The notes below the pieces were generated by a model. The model had not been told where the DNA came from and searched no databases. It saw nothing but the letters and a program-made list of their open reading frames with translations. Made by a program: the position numbers and the translations under genes. This document shows, one piece after another, positions 28,061-38,302 of a stretch of 38,302 bases of DNA (its first letter is position 1; each line of letters begins with the position of its first letter). Source of the DNA: Rhodothermaceae bacterium (GTDB taxonomy: Bacteria > Bacteroidota > Rhodothermia > Rhodothermales > Bin80); the NCBI GenBank assembly GCA_009841335.1, contig VXLY01000069.1, forward strand, positions 1 to 38,302, given 5' to 3'.

Positions 28061-28726
28061 CTAATCAGTCTCTATGAGATTCAGAAGCTTAGCCGACCAA
28101 CTCTCAGGAAACGCAGCATTCACTTCCAAAGGCACCCGAGCTACCGGATGTTCAAAAGTCAGACGGCAACAATGTAACGCAATGGTTCGCCCGTCAAAAC
28201 GGTGACGTGCACCGTAACGCACATCTCCCAATACAGGGAAACCCCGGGCAGAAAACTGACACCGAACTTGATGAGCACGGCCCGTGATAAGCTCCACGCC
28301 CACAGACGTAAAAATCCCATCACTGTTCAGTGCCCTCCAACGCAGACTTGAATACTTTCCGGATCGTTCGTCCTGGACAACATGTGCTCGCCCCGCCTCC
28401 TTGTGCAGATAGTCTTCCATTACACCGCTCCCTTCAATCAAGCCCTCCACTACAACGATGTATTCCTTTGTTACCCGACGATCGCGGAATGCTTGACTCA
28501 AGCGTCGTGCCGCCTTGGATGTTCTCGCAAGCACCATAGCACCTGATACCGGACGATCCAGGCGATGAACCAATCCAATGTAGACATTGCCCGGTTTGCT
28601 GTATTTCTTTTTCAGGTAGGCACGGGCTAGCGTTACCAAGTCTGGATCCCCTGTAATGTCGGCTTGGGATAATAGACCTGCAGGTTTATTAAGCGTCAAC
28701 AAATGATTATCCTCAAAAAGCCACAT
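28061..28726 (-). CDS. RluA-family pseudouridine synthase
   Basis: This 221-residue RNA-modifying enzyme isomerises specific uridines in rRNA or tRNA. The family signature HRLDRPVSG has the catalytic Asp57. It is preceded by LLTLNKPAGLLSQ and followed by the ELITGRAHQVRCQFSARGFPVLGDVRYG block (RTHQIR-like motif). It lacks an S4 RNA-binding domain, so it is a compact RluA/RluC-type catalytic unit; the exact target position cannot be read from sequence. The start is ATG at 28726, since a stop lies three codons upstream in frame. It is the last gene of the minus-strand cluster, 23 bp after the second DUF5686 gene. Confidence 0.92.
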   Translation of the reverse strand: MWLFEDNHLLTLNKPAGLLSQADITGDPDLVTLARAYLKKKYSKPGNVYIGLVHRLDRPVSGAMVLARTSKAARRLSQAFRDRRVTKEYIVVVEGLIEGSGVMEDYLHKEAGRAHVVQDERSGKYSSLRWRALNSDGIFTSVGVELITGRAHQVRCQFSARGFPVLGDVRYGARHRFDGRTIALHCCRLTFEHPVARVPLEVNAAFPESWSAKLLNLIETD

Positions 28727-28749
28727 GAGAATTCAGTGTACACACCATG

Positions 28750-31104
28750 CTATCGACGCCCTGCTAAACCAATACTGACAAACAGTCCAGGTTGGTTAAT
28801 TCTGCGACTAAGGTCCACGCGTAATGGAGCTCGCGCAATACTCAAAGTGATTTCATGGATCCACCCGTCATTAACATACACATGTGCAGCCCCAAATCGG
28901 GTACTGACCTTTTGATCTACAAGTGGCCTGACGCGAAACAGCTCAAACAGTAGGCTGCGAAAATCGTGCTCCCAATGTACTCCTGCCACATGACGTCCAA
29001 TTAAACGACGGTTACGGACGGTGCGGAGCGTACCGAGTGCTCCAATCGGACCCATACTGCCCTCTGCAACATGCCATTCCTGAATAGGAGCTCCAGATGT
29101 TGTGAACCCCGCCAGTACACGTACCGACATTCCAGCGGACTGCGGGCGACGGCGCATCAGAGTACGCATGTACCCATCCGCAAACAGGGTTGCTTTCAGA
29201 TACCGACGGTCTTCAGGAGCGTCGCCATACTCAACCCTGACCTCAACCCTCTCCTGAGGATCTATGCGATATGGCTGCCAATCGCTACCGGTGGCTACCC
29301 TGAGCTCGAAGGACTTGTGGTGCCCTGGACTGATCAGGAAATTCGTCGGAAACTCCCGTTTATGCGGCCATGGCCTCCTGACCTGGGTTTGTACGGAATC
29401 AATAACGGCGTACGTCCCGGAAATTTTCGCCCTGATCCCATGCGCCTCGTAACTTGCATTCAAACGCACCCTCGTCGCCCAATACCAGTCAAAGTAATCC
29501 CGGGCCAGCAATCTGGCTGACAACGAATTCGTAGCCTCCGTGTGAATTAATGTACCATTTTGCGGCTGCATATCCCGCTCTAGTATTACGGAGGATTCCA
29601 AGACATTTGTCAATTGACTACGCAGCGCAGCAGCCACGCGCGTATAGTCATACACTAGAGATTTTCCGATGCGGGCTGCCAGTTCCGTGCGCTCTCCTAT
29701 GGGAAATGCCTTGCCAACTCCTACGAGAGTGCCGTCCACGCGATTATAGCGCAGCCATGGTGCAAAACCTCCGATAAGGGGCCAAACAAACTGCGGACGA
29801 TCTCCCAAATGAAAGCTACGTGCCTCCATTTCTGAGCCGCGAACCGAGGCAGTGGCTGGAAGCGCCTGACGCAGGGTTAGCGGTCGTTCACGAAGCAGGT
29901 CATCAATCACATCCAATTCTTGCACCGTCAGCGCAACCATATCCAAGCCCAGCAAAAACAGATCGTCCCGGAAGACCGAAACAGAATCCACCTGCAACTG
30001 CTCTTGACGCATGAATGGCGCAGTAGGTACGGCCTGATTGATCTGATAATTCATTAGCCTGGCAACTTGCTGGACCGTAGTTGGGCTAGTAGCCTCGCCC
30101 TCCGGCTCCACATGAATGCGGCCTTCTGTCCGAAGGTCTATTGGCAGCCAAAATGAATCCGCCGGGGCAAAACTCTGACGGTAAGCGACCCTCCAAGCCC
30201 GGGTATCAGGGGAAAAAACTACATGAGAAGCAGGCCTCACATCAACCTCTGCCAGTGCGTAAACACTGTCCAGGACAGAAATTCGTCCAATCAGTGTGGC
30301 TTCCTGATTGTTCTTCGGAGCAATGTATATATCGTAGAGTTGCTGATCACCCCAGCGGCGACGACCCGCAAGTGTAAAATTGTAGTGATCTAGCGCATCT
30401 GGATGTGTAGGCCCGAAAAAAATCAATCCATTTATCTGCACATAATCTGAAGAAAAATCCTGAGGTGCCGGGGTCAGACCCAGCTGTTCATAAAAATCCG
30501 ATGTCAAACGCATCGACCGTATGATGTCCCGGGTTCCGGCCTGACCGGTCGCGAACCGATCAAGGACGGCCTCACTAATCAGGACGATCCTTTCGCGATG
30601 CCGTAAAGTTATCCTGGAATACATCCGAGCACCGAAGGATTCCAGATGGGCTCGGCGGGCAAGCTTACGGTGAATGACCCTCTGCATGATGCCAGCGGCC
30701 AGATTATCTCCTGTCACCAGTACTTCAGGCAGGGTGATAGCCGCCGGTTCTAGACTCACGTTAATTACTCGTGGATCGTCCGGCCCCAGTGTTACCTGCA
30801 CAGAATTATAGCCGATATGCCGAAAAATCAAAGTCGCTGGCAAGACAGGAAGCGTGATCTCAAAAGCACCATCACGATTTGTGATCGTACCCTGAACAGT
30901 TCCATCCAGAATTACATGCGCGGACACCAGTGGCAATAGCGTGACAGAATCTCGCACGGACCCTGTAACAAGCACCTGCCCCGACGCCCACTGCGTAGAC
31001 TGCTGGATTACAACGACGCTCAAAACAATGAGCAGCCACCGCAGGACCGACCGCCTGTCCGACAGCCCGGAATGCGCCTCTGACAATCGGGAACAGGCCG
31101 TCAT
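28750..31104 (-). CDS. DUF5686 outer-membrane protein with carboxypeptidase-regulatory-like domain (second copy)
   Basis: This 784-residue protein has a signal segment at about 22-43 (LRWLLIVLSVVVIQQ, cleavage before QVLVTG). A carboxypeptidase-regulatory-like domain follows (VTGSVRDSVTLLPLVSAHVIL, NRDGAFEITLP, IFRHIGYNSVQVTL), then a short helix (AAGIMQRVIHRKLARR). The long DUF5686 region has FGARMYSRITLRHRERIVLISEAV, the repeated FFGPTHPDALDHYNFTLAG block, and many amphipathic strands of a C-terminal barrel. It is clearly paralogous to the gene just upstream, which begins 12 bp away. It ends in GLAGRR, not in an aromatic residue, unlike its sister. The function of DUF5686 proteins is not established; they are outer-membrane or surface proteins in Bacteroidota and relatives. 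Confidence 0.82.
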   Translation of the reverse strand: MTACSRLSEAHSGLSDRRSVLRWLLIVLSVVVIQQSTQWASGQVLVTGSVRDSVTLLPLVSAHVILDGTVQGTITNRDGAFEITLPVLPATLIFRHIGYNSVQVTLGPDDPRVINVSLEPAAITLPEVLVTGDNLAAGIMQRVIHRKLARRAHLESFGARMYSRITLRHRERIVLISEAVLDRFATGQAGTRDIIRSMRLTSDFYEQLGLTPAPQDFSSDYVQINGLIFFGPTHPDALDHYNFTLAGRRRWGDQQLYDIYIAPKNNQEATLIGRISVLDSVYALAEVDVRPASHVVFSPDTRAWRVAYRQSFAPADSFWLPIDLRTEGRIHVEPEGEATSPTTVQQVARLMNYQINQAVPTAPFMRQEQLQVDSVSVFRDDLFLLGLDMVALTVQELDVIDDLLRERPLTLRQALPATASVRGSEMEARSFHLGDRPQFVWPLIGGFAPWLRYNRVDGTLVGVGKAFPIGERTELAARIGKSLVYDYTRVAAALRSQLTNVLESSVILERDMQPQNGTLIHTEATNSLSARLLARDYFDWYWATRVRLNASYEAHGIRAKISGTYAVIDSVQTQVRRPWPHKREFPTNFLISPGHHKSFELRVATGSDWQPYRIDPQERVEVRVEYGDAPEDRRYLKATLFADGYMRTLMRRRPQSAGMSVRVLAGFTTSGAPIQEWHVAEGSMGPIGALGTLRTVRNRRLIGRHVAGVHWEHDFRSLLFELFRVRPLVDQKVSTRFGAAHVYVNDGWIHEITLSIARAPLRVDLSRRINQPGLFVSIGLAGRR

Positions 31105-31116
31105 TCCTTGCGAAAA

Positions 31117-33498
31117 TCAAAAAAGGCGGGCTAGACCAAACGTTGGATACAGGAAACGTTTTTCCTCAATGTGATAGGCGAAATCCACACGTGCTAAGCC
31201 GAAAATTCCGCTCAGTGATAGACCTAACTCATTATGACGACGCCAACTGTGCCGCGAGACTCCCAACCCTCGAATAAAAGCATGCCCACCAAAAATTGAT
31301 ACATTATAGCCCCTATCCACCATGGCCGACAGCCCCAGCAGCTCAAATGGCAGCGTACGAAAGTTATGCTCCCAGTGTCCAAAAACAATTCCACTGCCTT
31401 GATATGGGAGTCCCCGAAGGGTGTGCAACGAACCATCCCAATGATAAACCGTGGTGCCTCCCTCAACAATAAACGAACGCTGCAGCGGCAGAGTCCGACC
31501 GCCTTCAGAAGCCATACCTACTGAAATGCCGTAATCAAGGGTTGCCGGTATAAAACGTCTGCGCAAAAGTGTATTCACGCGGCCCCCTGCTCTCAGATAG
31601 TACCGACGAAAAACAAAATCTGACTTCGGCATTGAGAATTCAGCACTGAAAGCCAGGTGCTTTGATGGATCAATTAGTATCACCGAGGGGCGACCGAAAG
31701 CAAGCTCAATCGTGACTGTCCTCATTTCGCCTTCCATAACCGTCGCGTTTGGCCGCTGTGGTTCACTCCTACCTAACAAGTCGTAACTGGTGTTACCGGT
31801 CAACGGTGAATGATTTTCATGCAGGTACGTAGCCGATATCGTGCCTTGAGGAGCTTGCAATTGATAGCCCCCTGTGATTGATACCCCCTGCCTTCGATAG
31901 TAGTCAAAGTAATCTTCCTGCCCAATGAGCATCAAACTACTGTTAGTCAATCTGTTTTTGTTGCCGGACTGATAGGTGAAAGTGTTTTCCGACCTGTACC
32001 CCACGTTGACGAACCAATCTTTCTCCCAGCGAACAGCTCCATCATACGAAAACTGCTCAGCCCCTTTTTGCCCGGTGCTCAAACCTGCCCCCACTTCTAC
32101 GGCAAAGGTATGGTCGGACTCTTCGCGAGAGAATTCTTTGCGGTATCCTAGACCTCCATGGAAATCATCCACCCGGTTGTACCATACACGCGGGCTAATC
32201 CCATACTTGGCGAAAAACCCGAAGACCCTGTCCGTAGATTCGCGTCGCTCTTCCATTTCGGCGCGCCTGTTCATTGCACGTCCCAAGGGTCCCCGCATTT
32301 CGTAGGCTTCTCTTAGCGAGTGAGTACTGTCAATGGATGCATATGCTATTGTTTCTTGGGGATCAAGCGGAACCACAACCCCCTCACGTTGGAATCCTTC
32401 GTCAGATGCTACCGCTAACGAATCCACATGCAGCCTCCAACCTTCCTCAAACAGACTGTCTGCCAATACAATATTCAACTCGTAGTCCGTGAAGCGAGAC
32501 ACCTGATCAACGATGATAGTTGGAAAACTGAGTAATACGCCAAAAGAGATTTCGACAACCGCATTTGATCGCAAATCCACGGGCAGCCAAATATCTCCAC
32601 CGTAATTAGAAAACTGCTGCAGATAGGTGACCTCATACCTCCGGATCGGGAATGGGAATATAAAGGCCGGTCCCGGACGCAACCTGGCTTCAATAAGCGC
32701 GAACACCCCGTCCATGACAGAAACTGTGCCCACGAAGGCGCTGGTCTGTCTATACTTCGGTTCAACTGCAATATCATAGATGAGTACATCATCAACGCTG
32801 CGCATCCCTTCCAACGTGAATACATACTTGTCTAGGGCATCTGGATGTGTGACGCCAAAAAGTGTATGGCCGCTAATTTCCACGTCGTCATCATACAGAT
32901 TTAACATGGTCAGAGCTGCGGGCATCGCATCTACACCGGGGAAATTGCCCGTGCTCCGCGTTCCGGTTATCTCTTCGCGAATTCCCCTATCCTTATCCCA
33001 CCATGCCGTGGCAGCAGATTCAGTAATAGCAACAATACCGGAGTCATTGGAGAACGTATATCGTGAGTATGCCTGAGCCTCAAATGTGCTCAGCTTCTCT
33101 TGCCAAACCGCTTTGCGCTCGATCACCTCGCGCATGATTGATACAGCCGGATCCTCATCTGTAACTACCAACTGCCTCATCTCTATGACCACGGGCTGCA
33201 ACCGAAACTCCAGTGGAGTTTCGGTGTGGGCCGTAAGCGTATCGGTTCGGTAGCCGATGTAGCGCACCACAAGATCAACCGGCAGATCATCTACTGCAAT
33301 TTCATAGACCCCCTCCCGGTTTGTGATGGTGCCTCTATAAGTACCCGCGATCTGCACCGTTGCCGCTGGCAGGGTTTCATTGGTGCTGGCATCAACAACA
33401 CGGCCACGGAGAATCTGTGCTTTGATCTCCGGTGGACATGCCAAGCACAGAAGCAAGATCAACCCCGATGTTATGCCGATACTGCGTTTATGCATCAA
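31117..33498 (-). CDS. DUF5686 outer-membrane protein with carboxypeptidase-regulatory-like domain (first copy)
   Basis: This 793-residue protein has a signal peptide of about 27 residues (ITSGLILLLCLACPPEIKAQ). Residues about 29-105 are a carboxypeptidase-regulatory-like beta-sandwich (LRGRVVDASTNETLPAATVQI, GTITNREGVYEIAV, VVRYIGYRTDTLT). AVSIMREVIERKAVWQEKL follows, then the DUF5686 core (FEAQAYSRYTFSNDSGIVAITESA, LFGVTHPDALDKYVFTLEG) and a barrel ending in FGLARLF with a C-terminal Phe. The CarboxypepD-reg/DUF5686 arrangement is the standard one for this family. Its start overlaps the end of the patatin gene by 11 bp, and its stop is 12 bp from its paralogue. The three genes are therefore surely co-transcribed. 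The role is unknown; a contribution to envelope lipid or protein handling is inference from the neighbour. Confidence 0.85.
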   Translation of the reverse strand: MMHKRSIGITSGLILLLCLACPPEIKAQILRGRVVDASTNETLPAATVQIAGTYRGTITNREGVYEIAVDDLPVDLVVRYIGYRTDTLTAHTETPLEFRLQPVVIEMRQLVVTDEDPAVSIMREVIERKAVWQEKLSTFEAQAYSRYTFSNDSGIVAITESAATAWWDKDRGIREEITGTRSTGNFPGVDAMPAALTMLNLYDDDVEISGHTLFGVTHPDALDKYVFTLEGMRSVDDVLIYDIAVEPKYRQTSAFVGTVSVMDGVFALIEARLRPGPAFIFPFPIRRYEVTYLQQFSNYGGDIWLPVDLRSNAVVEISFGVLLSFPTIIVDQVSRFTDYELNIVLADSLFEEGWRLHVDSLAVASDEGFQREGVVVPLDPQETIAYASIDSTHSLREAYEMRGPLGRAMNRRAEMEERRESTDRVFGFFAKYGISPRVWYNRVDDFHGGLGYRKEFSREESDHTFAVEVGAGLSTGQKGAEQFSYDGAVRWEKDWFVNVGYRSENTFTYQSGNKNRLTNSSLMLIGQEDYFDYYRRQGVSITGGYQLQAPQGTISATYLHENHSPLTGNTSYDLLGRSEPQRPNATVMEGEMRTVTIELAFGRPSVILIDPSKHLAFSAEFSMPKSDFVFRRYYLRAGGRVNTLLRRRFIPATLDYGISVGMASEGGRTLPLQRSFIVEGGTTVYHWDGSLHTLRGLPYQGSGIVFGHWEHNFRTLPFELLGLSAMVDRGYNVSIFGGHAFIRGLGVSRHSWRRHNELGLSLSGIFGLARVDFAYHIEEKRFLYPTFGLARLF

Positions 33499-34657
33499 TA
33501 GCTTCCTCCAAAAATGTTTCTATGGTGGCAGATTGCCGCTTGCCGTCTTCGTAACCTAGCTCCAGCACCCGACTGATGAACTCTGGATCAAACAACATCA
33601 CACTGAGCCAGTCTGGACTCAGGGTATCCCCGCTTCCGAGCCCTCGAGTAAGCAATCTTAAGACACCCTTCGTCCTGACCTCCAATCCCCTTGCCAGCAT
33701 GCCGATGTCCTTGGATGGTTCAATCAAAAGAATGTTGACCGGACGCATTCCATTTCGTTCGGCATGCGGCGTACTCCTGACCAATTTAGTTATCCTCTTG
33801 GCCACTCGTATGTCATGATCAAAAGCATCCAAAAAAATGGCGTTCAGCATGATGCCCATTACCTGCGCTGCTGGAGGGTATCCGATAACCGCTGGCTCAC
33901 CTGCTTCCTCCCAAGAGCGTGGGTATTTGTGCGAAATACAGATGATATCCGTTGCTCCCAAGTGCAGTGCGGGCGCGAGTGGAGCAATCAAACGAATACC
34001 ACCGTCCCCATGCCATGCTCCGCCAAGCTTTACCGCAGGAAATAACAGTGGCAAAGCCGAAGATGCCATCACGTGATCAAGCGTGATTTCAGTCTTGTGT
34101 GCTATGCGACTCGGGCGATGCCACATTCCAATATCCCGCCCCTGTACCCAGCTCACCGACTGACCTGTGGTGAAGCTGGTTGTCGTAATACAAACCGATT
34201 GTAATTTTCCGCTTGCGAGATTCTCGCTAATCTGCGGCAATTTTCCGTCTGGGGTAGCTGGTAACTGCCCGGACAAATACTTGCGCAGCGGTTCTGTGTT
34301 GAGAAGTGCTTCGCCTTCATTCACACGAATCACGGGATTGCCAGGCCGTATGTGCCGTAGAAGGCGCCGAAACAGGCCTCCGCTGGATTCTGGCAAGTAT
34401 ACCTTTTCCTGACTGATATTCTGCCAACAGTGTAACAACGCTTCTGCACCTCCTGAGTCGGGGTGCCCAGCAAGAAATGCAGCATTGATTGCCCCGGCAG
34501 AAACCCCCGTAATGATCGGGAAAGTAATTTCCGGGACCAATTCCTTCATGAAGTGCACAACGCCAGCCTGATAGGCCGATCGTGCACCGCCTCCAGTGAG
34601 CACCAATGCCAACTGCCTCGAGGGCTCCTCTTCACTAAGATTAGATGTATTGCTCAT
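33488..34657 (-). CDS. Patatin-like phospholipase
   Basis: This 389-residue lipid acyl hydrolase has a Ser-Asp dyad. The oxyanion block is LTGGGARSAYQAG (20-32), the nucleophile elbow is GVSAGA with Ser53, and the second catalytic residue is Asp218 in HGDGGIR. The C-terminal part is helical, and its cluster neighbours are outer-membrane proteins. There is no signal peptide, so it should be cytoplasmic or peripheral on the inner membrane, as for RssA/YchK-type proteins. BamA-fused patatins have a barrel that is absent here. Its stop overlaps the start of the DUF5686 gene by 11 bp. The start ATG at 34657 lies 184 bp after the S46 gene on the same strand, so read-through from there is possible. 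Confidence 0.92.
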   Translation of the reverse strand: MSNTSNLSEEEPSRQLALVLTGGGARSAYQAGVVHFMKELVPEITFPIITGVSAGAINAAFLAGHPDSGGAEALLHCWQNISQEKVYLPESSGGLFRRLLRHIRPGNPVIRVNEGEALLNTEPLRKYLSGQLPATPDGKLPQISENLASGKLQSVCITTTSFTTGQSVSWVQGRDIGMWHRPSRIAHKTEITLDHVMASSALPLLFPAVKLGGAWHGDGGIRLIAPLAPALHLGATDIICISHKYPRSWEEAGEPAVIGYPPAAQVMGIMLNAIFLDAFDHDIRVAKRITKLVRSTPHAERNGMRPVNILLIEPSKDIGMLARGLEVRTKGVLRLLTRGLGSGDTLSPDWLSVMLFDPEFISRVLELGYEDGKRQSATIETFLEEAIDA

Positions 34658-34841: not shown

Positions 34842-37064
34842 TCATTCATCCGACTCGGAGACAATCTCCTGTACCAAGTGATTAGCCCCATAGATGTGGC
34901 GCAGCGATTCTAGAATGGCGCGCACGTCCACCGAAATGGCCCGTGCAGCACGATCAGAGAATACATACTCATTGGTTAAGGATTCAATGTTACCATCGTA
35001 GAGTAACCCCACAACCTCCAGATTCTGATTCAGGAGTGGGGACCCTGAATTACCCGCGGCTAAATCGTTGGTACTGACCATACTAAGCGGCGTGGACAGA
35101 TCAAATGCCTCGGGAGGATTGCGCCAACGTTCGGGAAGATCCCACTCCCGGCTGACATCACGATAGGCGTGAAAGTGGTCATACATCCCATAGAATGTGG
35201 TGAATGCTGGAGCACGCGTTCCGTTATACACGTATCCGCCAACACGACCATCGGATATCCGCAAAGTAGAGGATGCGTCCGGGGGCACGTCCGTGCCGTA
35301 GAGCGCGAACCGCAGTGCCGCCAACTCCGCAACAAGCAAGTCTTCGCGATTCTGAAAACTCTCCACCTGCTGTTGAGCCGTGAAGTACAACGGGGCCAAT
35401 GCACTGATCACCCGAACGGTCGGATCATCGCTTCCCAAAAATCCCTTATCTAAAAGTTCGGCAAATCCAGCCGAGTCCGCGAGTGATGTATTGGCGACAA
35501 TGCCTGCGGCCAAGCTATCTATCGCGATCTCTCCCAACAGACTGCGCATTGTCGGATCCTGCGCTCCCAAAGCTTCCTGGATCTCCCGAAGCCGCAACTT
35601 GATCAGTGACTCATCCACTTCTGCGGGGAAATCGTCCAGTGCCAATGCATCCTTGCGCACATCCGTGATTATTTCCTGATCTACAAAGCCTCTACGCTGC
35701 AGATTAGCATAATAATATCCATACAGCGCACGCAACAGAATCCTTGACCCGAGCGTCGTCCCGAAGAGTGCAAACCCTGCCATGCGGCCAGCCTCTGCCC
35801 GCTTCGAAAGCTGGAGTTCATCCAGCTCCTGAAACAGTTGGCCGTAGCGACCCGACAGGGAGTCCGATTTGAAAAGATCGTCCCTCACCTGGTACTCAGC
35901 TGCGCTGCGCCGAGCGATCAGCGTATCATTTTGCAGACCCGCCAACCTTCCCGAAAACGACTTGAGCGTGTTGCTGACATTGAACCACATGTTGTTCAGC
36001 CCATCCGCAGTATCCGATTCGGCGGAATTTGCAAACGGGCGAAGTAATTCTGCCCGCCGCTCCAATGCGGCAACCTGTTGAGGCAATACGTAGTCGCGCT
36101 CAAAAACTAACTGTGATACACTTCCAAGTCGACTGGTCGAACCCGGATTACCCACGAGAAAGACCGCATCACCAACTGATGCCCCCTCGGTACTCCACGC
36201 AAAATGATGTGGTGTTGCTGCAGGATTGCCGTCTTCGTCATAGGCCCGCAAAAAAGCCAGATCAAGCGAGTAACGGGGAAAAGTGAAGTTGTCGCTCTCA
36301 CCCCCGAAGTAACCTATTTGCTCCTCTGGAGCCATGACCAAGCGCACGTCTTCGTAGCGCCTGTAGGTATAAGCGGCATAGCGTTCGCCACTGTAGAGCT
36401 CTACCACTTCCACATGCAAAGCGGAATCACGTTCTGCTGCTGCAGCCCCCAATTCGTCTTCAATATCCGTAGCTTTGTTGCGACGGGCCTGGACCCGTTC
36501 AGTATCCCCCCGTACGATGCGGCTGGCCCCGTGAACCCGTCTCGTAACGTCTGTGATTCCCCAGAGCTGCTCAACATACAGGTCAGGTACTTTTCGCTCA
36601 TCCGCACCGGTTGCAGCTAGAAAGCCTTCCTCCATCAAACTCTCCCCGTCACGGGACACATCCACAATGCTCTCACGCGCGCAATGGTGGTTCGTCAGGA
36701 TCAATCCCCGATCTGAGACAAAGCTGGCGGAGCAGCCTGACGAGAGTCTCAAAGCTCCTAATCTGGCTTTAGCAAACCAGGCAGAATCGGCATCTATGCC
36801 ATATTCTTCGGCGAACCAGGCAACCGGCGGATTATCAAAAGTCCACATTTTGCCTCCATCAAAACGACCAAGATCCACATCATACCTGTCCACCTCAAAG
36901 GAAACTTCCTCCACCGGTTCCGCTACCGGGGGCGGAGCCTCCTCTACGACCAGAGGCTGCTCTATCACCTGCACAACTTCCACAGCAGAAGTGGCACAGC
37001 CCGCCAGTGCCACCAGAAGAAGCGGCAATCCGATAGACAATCCCTTCATGCGGCTAAGCGTCAT
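34842..37064 (-). CDS. S46 family dipeptidyl-peptidase, lipid-anchored, DPP7 type
   Basis: This 740-residue chymotrypsin-like exopeptidase removes dipeptides from peptide N-termini. A lipoprotein signal ends in ALAGC (lipidated Cys23), followed by an acidic Pro/Glu linker (about 35-56). Triad residues are His127 in LTNHHC, Asp268 in FPRYSLDLAFLR and Ser673 in AAGNSGSPLL. The helical domain characteristic of S46 lies between about 300 and 590. Residue 691, 18 after the Ser, is Gly (YDGN). In the family this position is Gly in DPP7 (hydrophobic/aliphatic P1 preference) and Arg in DPP11 (acidic P1), so a DPP7-like preference is expected. Most S46 enzymes are soluble periplasmic proteins, so the lipid anchor is unusual. 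It starts 3 bp after the upstream pseudopeptidase. Confidence 0.93.
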   Translation of the reverse strand: MTLSRMKGLSIGLPLLLVALAGCATSAVEVVQVIEQPLVVEEAPPPVAEPVEEVSFEVDRYDVDLGRFDGGKMWTFDNPPVAWFAEEYGIDADSAWFAKARLGALRLSSGCSASFVSDRGLILTNHHCARESIVDVSRDGESLMEEGFLAATGADERKVPDLYVEQLWGITDVTRRVHGASRIVRGDTERVQARRNKATDIEDELGAAAAERDSALHVEVVELYSGERYAAYTYRRYEDVRLVMAPEEQIGYFGGESDNFTFPRYSLDLAFLRAYDEDGNPAATPHHFAWSTEGASVGDAVFLVGNPGSTSRLGSVSQLVFERDYVLPQQVAALERRAELLRPFANSAESDTADGLNNMWFNVSNTLKSFSGRLAGLQNDTLIARRSAAEYQVRDDLFKSDSLSGRYGQLFQELDELQLSKRAEAGRMAGFALFGTTLGSRILLRALYGYYYANLQRRGFVDQEIITDVRKDALALDDFPAEVDESLIKLRLREIQEALGAQDPTMRSLLGEIAIDSLAAGIVANTSLADSAGFAELLDKGFLGSDDPTVRVISALAPLYFTAQQQVESFQNREDLLVAELAALRFALYGTDVPPDASSTLRISDGRVGGYVYNGTRAPAFTTFYGMYDHFHAYRDVSREWDLPERWRNPPEAFDLSTPLSMVSTNDLAAGNSGSPLLNQNLEVVGLLYDGNIESLTNEYVFSDRAARAISVDVRAILESLRHIYGANHLVQEIVSESDE

Positions 37065-37067
37065 TTT

Positions 37068-38183
37068 CTACGGCAGTGCTTGTTCAGCTAATTCGTCCGC
37101 CACGCCCTGGGCTTTCAGTACAGTGCGCAATAGCGCTAATATCCCGGAAGTAGACATGACCACGCAACGCGTACCTTCCTCGGTATTCGCATTATCGAAG
37201 GCAATGCCTAGAATTTCCATGTCCACATTTATAAGTCCTGCACCAGTTTGTGCACATTCACCGACCACAGAAAAATTTAACGCAGTTGCCAAATCATTCT
37301 CCTTGATGCCGGATAGCCAGTCTTCCGTCAACTCCCAGGCGCCTGTCGCGCCATGCGAATAATACTGGTCCAGCATTCCATACAATGTGGTGTGCGGCGG
37401 TGAGATTGTGCCATTGTAGCTGAATGTGTCTGAGAGCGTTATGACAGTGAACGGCGTATTTGCGTCAAATGCAGTTGCAAAGAGCCTCTCCCGTACATAT
37501 GGACTGCGATCATTCCACGCAAAATAGCTCTCCGTTTCCAGGGGTAGAGCCTGGCCATCGTAAACCCTGAATAGTGCAAAATCTATTGCGTATCTGGGGT
37601 ATACACCTTCCTCGTTCCCAAAGTCTGTGACATCCGCAGGAGGGATCACGACGAGCCGCACATCACCGTATGTGCGCCAAACATATTCCCAGAAGGTACT
37701 GCTATCATCGGCCGCAATAAGCTCTGCTTCAAACCCGGTCTCCAAATCCTCCGATGCTTCCTCAATGCGAGCAAACTCACGAATTTCCACGAGCTGCCGC
37801 GCGGTCAATCCTGGCAATTTACGTTCTTCCAAAAGCGTACCGGCTACAAAGACACTGTCATCTGGTCGGATCCAATTCTCCAGCGAGCGCAGGCATGTTG
37901 CACTGGTCACCGCCAGACCGTCGGCACTCACGAGTGCCGCAGCGCATCCGGACAACTTAAGTGTTCCTAAACGTGCATTTTCGATCCAATTGGCATCTAC
38001 AGCGCGTGGAAGCGAAGACCGGGACTCCGTCTCTTGGGCAAATCGCCAGACATGCTCCACCTCGGCGTTATCGTCCGCGCTCAGTGGAACAGACTGCTGC
38101 CCTACCTGAGCAAACGCATTCGCGGCAACTGACCCAAATAGCAAAGCACCGACCACGCGGCAAGGGATGGAACAATATCTCAT
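37068..38183 (-). CDS. S46-like pseudopeptidase lacking the helical domain
   Basis: This 371-residue protein has a signal peptide (about 1-26, AANAFAQ). It is paralogous to the S46 peptidase that follows. NARLGTLKLSGCAAALVSADGLAVTSATC matches KARLGALRLSSGCSASFVSDRGLILTNHHC. YPRYAIDFALFRVYDG matches FPRYSLDLAFLRAYDE. YNGTISPPHTTLYGMLDQY matches YNGTRAPAFTTFYGMYDHF. Its key differences are that the His position is Thr96 (SATC), the Ser position is Thr313 (GECAQTGAG), and about 290 residues forming the helical domain are gone; the Asp (201) is kept. It should fold as the two barrels but not cleave. An upstream ATG at 38207 is possible, but a Shine-Dalgarno site favours 38183. It is the first gene of a two-gene unit. 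Confidence 0.8.
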   Translation of the reverse strand: MRYCSIPCRVVGALLFGSVAANAFAQVGQQSVPLSADDNAEVEHVWRFAQETESRSSLPRAVDANWIENARLGTLKLSGCAAALVSADGLAVTSATCLRSLENWIRPDDSVFVAGTLLEERKLPGLTARQLVEIREFARIEEASEDLETGFEAELIAADDSSTFWEYVWRTYGDVRLVVIPPADVTDFGNEEGVYPRYAIDFALFRVYDGQALPLETESYFAWNDRSPYVRERLFATAFDANTPFTVITLSDTFSYNGTISPPHTTLYGMLDQYYSHGATGAWELTEDWLSGIKENDLATALNFSVVGECAQTGAGLINVDMEILGIAFDNANTEEGTRCVVMSTSGILALLRTVLKAQGVADELAEQALP

Positions 38184-38193
38184 GAACGTATAT

Positions 38194-38199
38194 CCACCT
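38194..38199 (-). promoter_or_regulatory. Shine-Dalgarno site deciding the pseudopeptidase start
   Basis: On the minus strand AGGTGG lies 10 bases before the ATG at 38183, and 3 codons inside the longer alternative that starts at 38207. It favours the shorter start, which also puts a normal signal peptide at the N-terminus. Such sites are scarce elsewhere in this window. Confidence 0.55.
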
Positions 38200-38214
38200 T
38201 TCTGCAATTTCTAT

Positions 38215-38298
38215 GCCGGAGTGGCGGAACTGGTAGACGCGCAGGTCTTAGGAACCTGTGTCCCTTCGGATGTGTGGGTTCGAGTCCCACCTCCGGCA
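38215..38298 (+). tRNA. tRNA-Leu (anticodon UAG)
   Basis: An 84-base class II tRNA. The acceptor stem GCCGGAG pairs with CTCCGGC over 7 bp, with discriminator A at 38298. The anticodon stem CAGGT/ACCTG holds the loop CTTAGGA, giving anticodon TAG. There is an extended variable arm, as for leucine tRNAs. The T-arm is GTGGG TTCGAGT CCCAC. CCA is not encoded (ACT follows). It reads CUN leucine codons and diverges from the S46 pair, with only 31 bp between it and the pseudopeptidase start codon. Confidence 0.97.
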
Positions 38299-38302
38299 CT
38301 TG

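Follow-up and report, generated by a model that had tools for sequence, protein, structure and literature searches.

Why would a bacterium keep a half-length and apparently dead peptidase gene directly beside an intact gene of the same family? The question is raised by the last two minus-strand genes of the window, by which we mean the whole 38,302-nt stretch of DNA that was analyzed. The upstream gene (U) encodes a secreted protein of 371 amino acids with the fold of the S46 peptidases, runs from an ATG to its stop codon without interruption and is separated by 3 nt from the downstream gene (D), which encodes an intact S46 peptidase (Table 1).

Both proteins belong to family S46. The Pfam profile Peptidase_S46 (PF10459, cut-off 22) matches D end to end with 570 bits (profile positions 2-696 of 698) and U with 105.9 bits in three stretches. 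D carries the motifs TNHHC, PRYSLD, GNSGS and YDGN, and both the catalytic triad and the cap domain are present; its relatives in the PDB are DPP7, DAP BII and DPP11 (matches with E 5e-51). Because the S1-determining site holds Gly, D is DPP7-like by the published rule (PMC8041751, PMC6753110). Together with the triad, the cap and the full-length profile match, this identifies D as a predicted DPP7-type S46 peptidase. D has a lipobox, LAGC, and U has a Sec signal without one. A Pfam search found no further S46 gene and no detached helical domain elsewhere in the genome, and relocation of the cap domain to another gene was rejected on that basis.

Table 1. Features of the tandem S46 locus, in window coordinates
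Feature	Positions	Strand	Remarks
U	37068..38183	-	Half-length, predicted catalytically dead S46 homologue; Sec signal peptide (MRYCSIPCRVVGALLFGSVAANAFA followed by Q)
U Thr96 codon	37896..37898	-	Catalytic His position; T/A/S/E in the 15 short forms
U Asp201 codon	37581..37583	-	Catalytic Asp position, retained here; D in 11/15 short forms
U junction, about residues 240-245	37449..37466	-	Point of loss of the helical cap domain (roughly 290 residues)
U Cys310	37254..37256	-	Conserved in every short form (15/15) but found in neither D nor active U; predicted to form a new disulfide with Cys340
U Thr313 codon	37245..37247	-	Catalytic Ser position; T/M/I/Y/S/N/L/D in the 15 short forms
U Cys340	37164..37166	-	Conserved in every short form (15/15), missing from D; among active U only in the full-length U of G013
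D	34842..37064	-	740-aa S46 lipoprotein; LAGC lipobox; His/Asp/Ser present; S1-determining position Gly (DPP7-like)
tRNA-Leu	38215..38299	+	Transcribed away from U, whose start codon is 31 nt distant; marks the U slot by synteny across the order
Patatin-like phospholipase gene	33488..34657	-	Context; downstream of the pair in many Rhodothermales

We mapped the catalytic sites of U on His84, Asp222 and Ser655 of SmDPP7 (PMC8041751). Thr96, Asp201 and Thr313 stand in their place. Across the 15 short forms, the window's included, the catalytic His is gone in all, even in the two that have a Ser at the nucleophile site, and eight different residues occupy the Ser position; this pattern indicates that no alternative nucleophile is being kept. 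Nor is the catalytic Asp position fixed (N, A, G and G in the four remaining short forms). The oxyanion loop ahead of the Ser site is two residues shorter, with GN replaced by AQ in the window protein. From the set that recognizes the substrate N-terminus in S46 enzymes (Asn213, Trp214 and Asp672 in SmDPP7 numbering), the equivalents of Asn and Trp are lost and that of Asp is kept (D330, 14/15 short forms); the equivalent of Arg218 is also kept (R197, 15/15). The alpha-helical cap with its N-anchoring Asn is absent, and strand b9 passes straight into b10. By all signs, as read from these residues and domains, U would be unable to work as a peptidase. The first-pass annotation, made from the DNA letters and their open reading frames without database searches, had correctly placed both genes with their 3-bp spacing and had read the exchanges of His and Ser for Thr, the conserved Asp and the missing helical domain in the same way. 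It missed two further losses, of about 30 residues in the first half of the protein (an alignment gap) and of the S1 loop.

What is left of U appears to be a well-formed domain. An AlphaFold2 model built with 40 sequences has a pLDDT of 84.3 and a pTM of 0.84, and its low-confidence part is residues 1-35, the signal peptide and linker. The model is closest to the double beta-barrel of DPP11 (5jxf; Z 35.9 over 326 residues). Its alignments with S46 structures reach Z 30-36 (322-326 residues, 2.9-3.1 A) and those with other trypsin-fold proteins Z 16-17; MamO is among its fold matches. According to the model, U is a folded S46 catalytic domain minus the cap. Compared with the S46 enzymes DPP7, DAP BII and DPP11 (MEROPS S46, clan PA; PDB 7DKB, 3WOJ, 4XZY, 5JXF), U has the same double beta-barrel and conserved blocks and descends from an active member, but it lacks the elements listed above and adds the invariant pair Cys310/Cys340. 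The position of this pair would resemble that of Cys191-Cys220 of chymotrypsin; Cys80 and Cys97 of U are common to active S46 proteins. Asn257 and a YNGT-P-TT block are also invariant in the short forms. In the alignment of the short forms, a Gln also tends to stand at the predicted start of the mature protein or close to it (38097-38183), with one Gln column invariant. This is reminiscent of the Bacteroidetes Q-rule, in which Gln shields exported proteins from aminopeptidases (PMC10653852).

In order to assess whether U is retained, we read the same locus in 15 other genomes of the family. In 14 of them (9/9 congeners and 5/6 other genomes), an intact short U immediately precedes D, and every genome read that has the short form has it adjoining D. 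In most members of the family the two genes lie next to each other or share a few bases, and all frames are open, with no internal stop in any short form. The single exception, G013, has a full-length active U and is the only family genome that does; this genome carries 8% contamination, although its U and D share a contig and its D clusters with those of the window's family. Within the genus, dN/dS is 0.10-0.22 for U and 0.09-0.14 for the active D, and U evolves faster than D. We also mutated the window's U at random to the observed divergence (2000 runs per pair). Such neutral change is expected to leave each pair with 4-6 stops, and stop-free outcomes were rare (3-36 of 2000 runs). The observed amino-acid changes (42-75) fall below the neutral minimum (64-107). 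U is under functional constraint: the catalytic residues are lost and the rest of the protein is under purifying selection. The first-pass annotation had argued that U was not a random pseudogene and had proposed a dedicated pseudopeptidase made beside an active lipoprotein dipeptidase. It would have given this up had relatives of the short form been missing or riddled with stops. Neither is the case, and the checks it suggested, of conserved adjacency to S46 genes and of the predicted structure of U alone, came out in its favour: the rejected neutral simulation and a dN/dS close to that of D speak against a random pseudogene, and the presence of the short form in 14 of 15 genomes under purifying selection supports a retained pseudopeptidase beside D.

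The origin of U is different from what its position suggests. Throughout the order Rhodothermales, a divergently oriented tRNA-Leu gene adjoins a tandem of two S46 genes (tRNA-Leu, U, D). Most families with the two genes have a full-length U whose triad is intact. A quick tree containing all dead forms put the short forms at the root with long-branch warnings, and was replaced by a careful tree made without the other dead forms, those from outside the family. Here the short forms make up one clade (100/100), whose sister is the U of G013, full length and active (99/96); this group in turn joins the other active U genes (99/99), which speaks against U as a copy of the adjacent D. U is a degraded orthologue of a separate full-length tandem S46 gene and not a decaying copy of D. 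The profile scores of U versus D are close, so the case rests on the tree and on synteny, and synteny bears much of it because the alternative placement is rejected weakly: holding the short forms with all D genes is rejected marginally (p-AU 0.048), and holding them with the D genes of the window's family is not formally rejected (p 0.083). Together with the repeated loss of catalysis described next, this refines the earlier reading of U as a half-length paralogue of its neighbor.

The slot occupied by U has lost catalysis elsewhere in the order. For instance, one genus of family f14, which we take to be Salinibacter, has a full-length dead U (nine genomes read) with the catalytic His changed to R, S or N and the Ser to N, D, Y or R; U is active in other genera of f14 (three genomes). 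Pairwise dN/dS of these dead U genes is 0.18-0.50, compared with 0.08-0.26 for D, a weaker but real constraint that is looser than in the window's family. In one of the nine genomes (G086) the dead U lies in a long open frame of 1236 codons (L175, 4297-8007, minus strand), which probably reaches upstream across the tRNA region. In one genus of family f5 (three genomes, among them G043), the slot holds a dead U of roughly 300 amino acids without the cap and without the extra cysteine pair. The short U of G043 is too divergent to place. Because its D groups away from the window's family, the evidence favours an independent origin of this half-length form. In a search of 296 genomes of the phylum, the half-length S46 proteins among the matches listed were confined to the window's family and G043. 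In D, all catalytic positions that can be read are intact; a few copies run off the contig, and in G082 (L190), for instance, the Ser region is out of view. Taken together, these patterns point to an S46 pseudopeptidase, paired with an active paralogue, that is selected and recurrent. At loci L178, L179, L183, L187 (family f5), L058 and L077, D is flush with the tRNA-Leu gene; U has been lost from the slot or was never in it, which indicates that D does not universally need U.

What U does can be proposed from these patterns. We favour a non-catalytic partner of D, a reading to which we give about an even chance and in which the pairing is inferred. S46 enzymes are dimeric (PMC8041751, PMC5460201, PMC6753110) and the genes of U and D are neighbors, which makes D the most likely partner; moreover, the catalytic residues of D stay intact while U repeatedly dies, an asymmetry also found in M16B peptidases and in MamE/MamO. 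The ancestor of U was an active full-length S46 dipeptidyl-peptidase encoded between tRNA-Leu and D in Rhodothermales. In the window's family the whole helical cap disappeared, together with the catalytic His and Ser and most of the site for the substrate N-terminus, and U has been retained as a secreted, probably disulfide-stabilized double-barrel protein. Gene order and spacing suggest that U and D are co-translated. U may pair with the D lipoprotein in the periplasm through its barrel domain and could tune the stability, assembly or activity of D, in the way that the inactive subunits of M16B peptidases serve the active ones. A stronger version, that the tandem pair of Rhodothermales is an obligate enzyme-pseudoenzyme heterodimer in which U has repeatedly given up catalysis, and twice also the cap, to become a structural or allosteric subunit of D, we consider possible but somewhat doubtful. 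If true, it would be the first enzyme-pseudoenzyme holoenzyme in family S46.

Other roles would account for part of the evidence. U could act alone, independently of D, as a periplasmic scaffold or peptide- or ligand-binding protein whose cleft, freed of cap and nucleophile, holds a ligand. The retained R197 and D330 are in keeping with this, since it is by the corresponding residues that S46 enzymes fix and bind the N-terminus of a substrate (PMC8041751), and so are the invariant N257 and YNGT-P-TT block and the free variation of the His and Ser positions, as expected after loss of catalysis; the dead trypsin-like domain of MamO, turned metal binder, is a precedent (PMC4794232). Yet with the equivalents of Asn213, Trp214 and the cap residue Asn328 lost, most contacts to the amine are gone, R197 and D330 may be purely structural, and the short form always stands beside D in the genomes read, so that we regard this role as unlikely, though worth keeping in mind. 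A smaller chance still goes to U as an inhibitor or buffer of D, a dominant-negative subunit that replaces one half of the D homodimer. The shared operon, the homologous barrel, the known S46 dimers (PMC8041751) and the fact that U is encoded first fit this proposal, but no sequence feature tells an inhibitor from an activator.

Two further explanations fare much worse. If U were a functionless, slowly decaying relic of a redundant duplicate, one would understand its faster evolution, its absence from the slot in several lineages and the free drift of its catalytic positions; purifying selection close to that of D, open frames at odds with the neutral simulation, the gain of invariant cysteines and the confident fold make such a relic very improbable. 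That U is still a peptidase with a different nucleophile, for example Thr313, is hardly credible: Thr does occupy the Ser position in the window and in three close relatives, but the range of residues at the Ser and His positions over the 15 short forms and the shortened, altered oxyanion loop contradict it.

The partnership that we favour has counterparts in other peptidases. In the M16B heterodimers (beta/alpha-MPP, SPH2681/2682, TTHA1264/1265, AlbF/AlbE), an active subunit cooperates with a homologous inactive one, and the subunits of TTHA1264/1265 come from neighboring genes, like U and D (PMC12731061). These are, however, unrelated zinc peptidases in which a full-length inactive subunit completes the chamber; a complex of U and D is predicted from gene order and a common dimeric ancestry. 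MamO, the pseudoprotease partner of the HtrA protease MamE in magnetosome formation, is like U a dead trypsin-fold homologue beside an active one and acts without catalysis; pseudoproteases arose independently in three taxa (PMC4794232). MamO differs in belonging to the HtrA family, in having an extra TauE domain that is required for MamE activation and in having lost no inserted domain. The CLIP-domain serine protease homologues of insects are also catalytically dead chymotrypsin-fold cofactors of active proteases; unlike U, they are eukaryotic, are not operon-encoded and carry a CLIP domain.

MEROPS lists inactive homologues for many families, and dead protease paralogues beside active ones are known in a few. 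For S46, we found no description of a pseudopeptidase or of an active/dead pair in the literature searched, in which coverage of subscription papers was thin. A pseudopeptidase beside an active paralogue is itself a known kind of arrangement; what is unusual here is the loss of a whole regulatory domain and the repeated origin. The Rhodothermales thus offer a natural series in one gene slot (active full-length, dead full-length and dead half-length), which lets one ask what a peptidase subunit still does after losing catalysis and then the substrate cap. S46 dipeptidyl-peptidases are studied as antibiotic targets because mammals are not known to have them. If U modulates D, the family would have a natural protein regulator, which could inform inhibitor design.

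The surroundings of the pair show two further features. The 31 nt between the 5' end of tRNA-Leu and the start codon of U (38184-38299) recur as an arrangement across the order, and with this spacing the promoter of one or both genes must overlap the other gene. Downstream of D (28061-34657) lie the patatin-like phospholipase gene, two DUF5686 genes with CarboxypepD_reg-like domains and a gene for an RluA-type pseudouridine synthase. Many genomes of the order likewise have patatin after S46, and matches to the DUF5686 genes came from the window's family alone.
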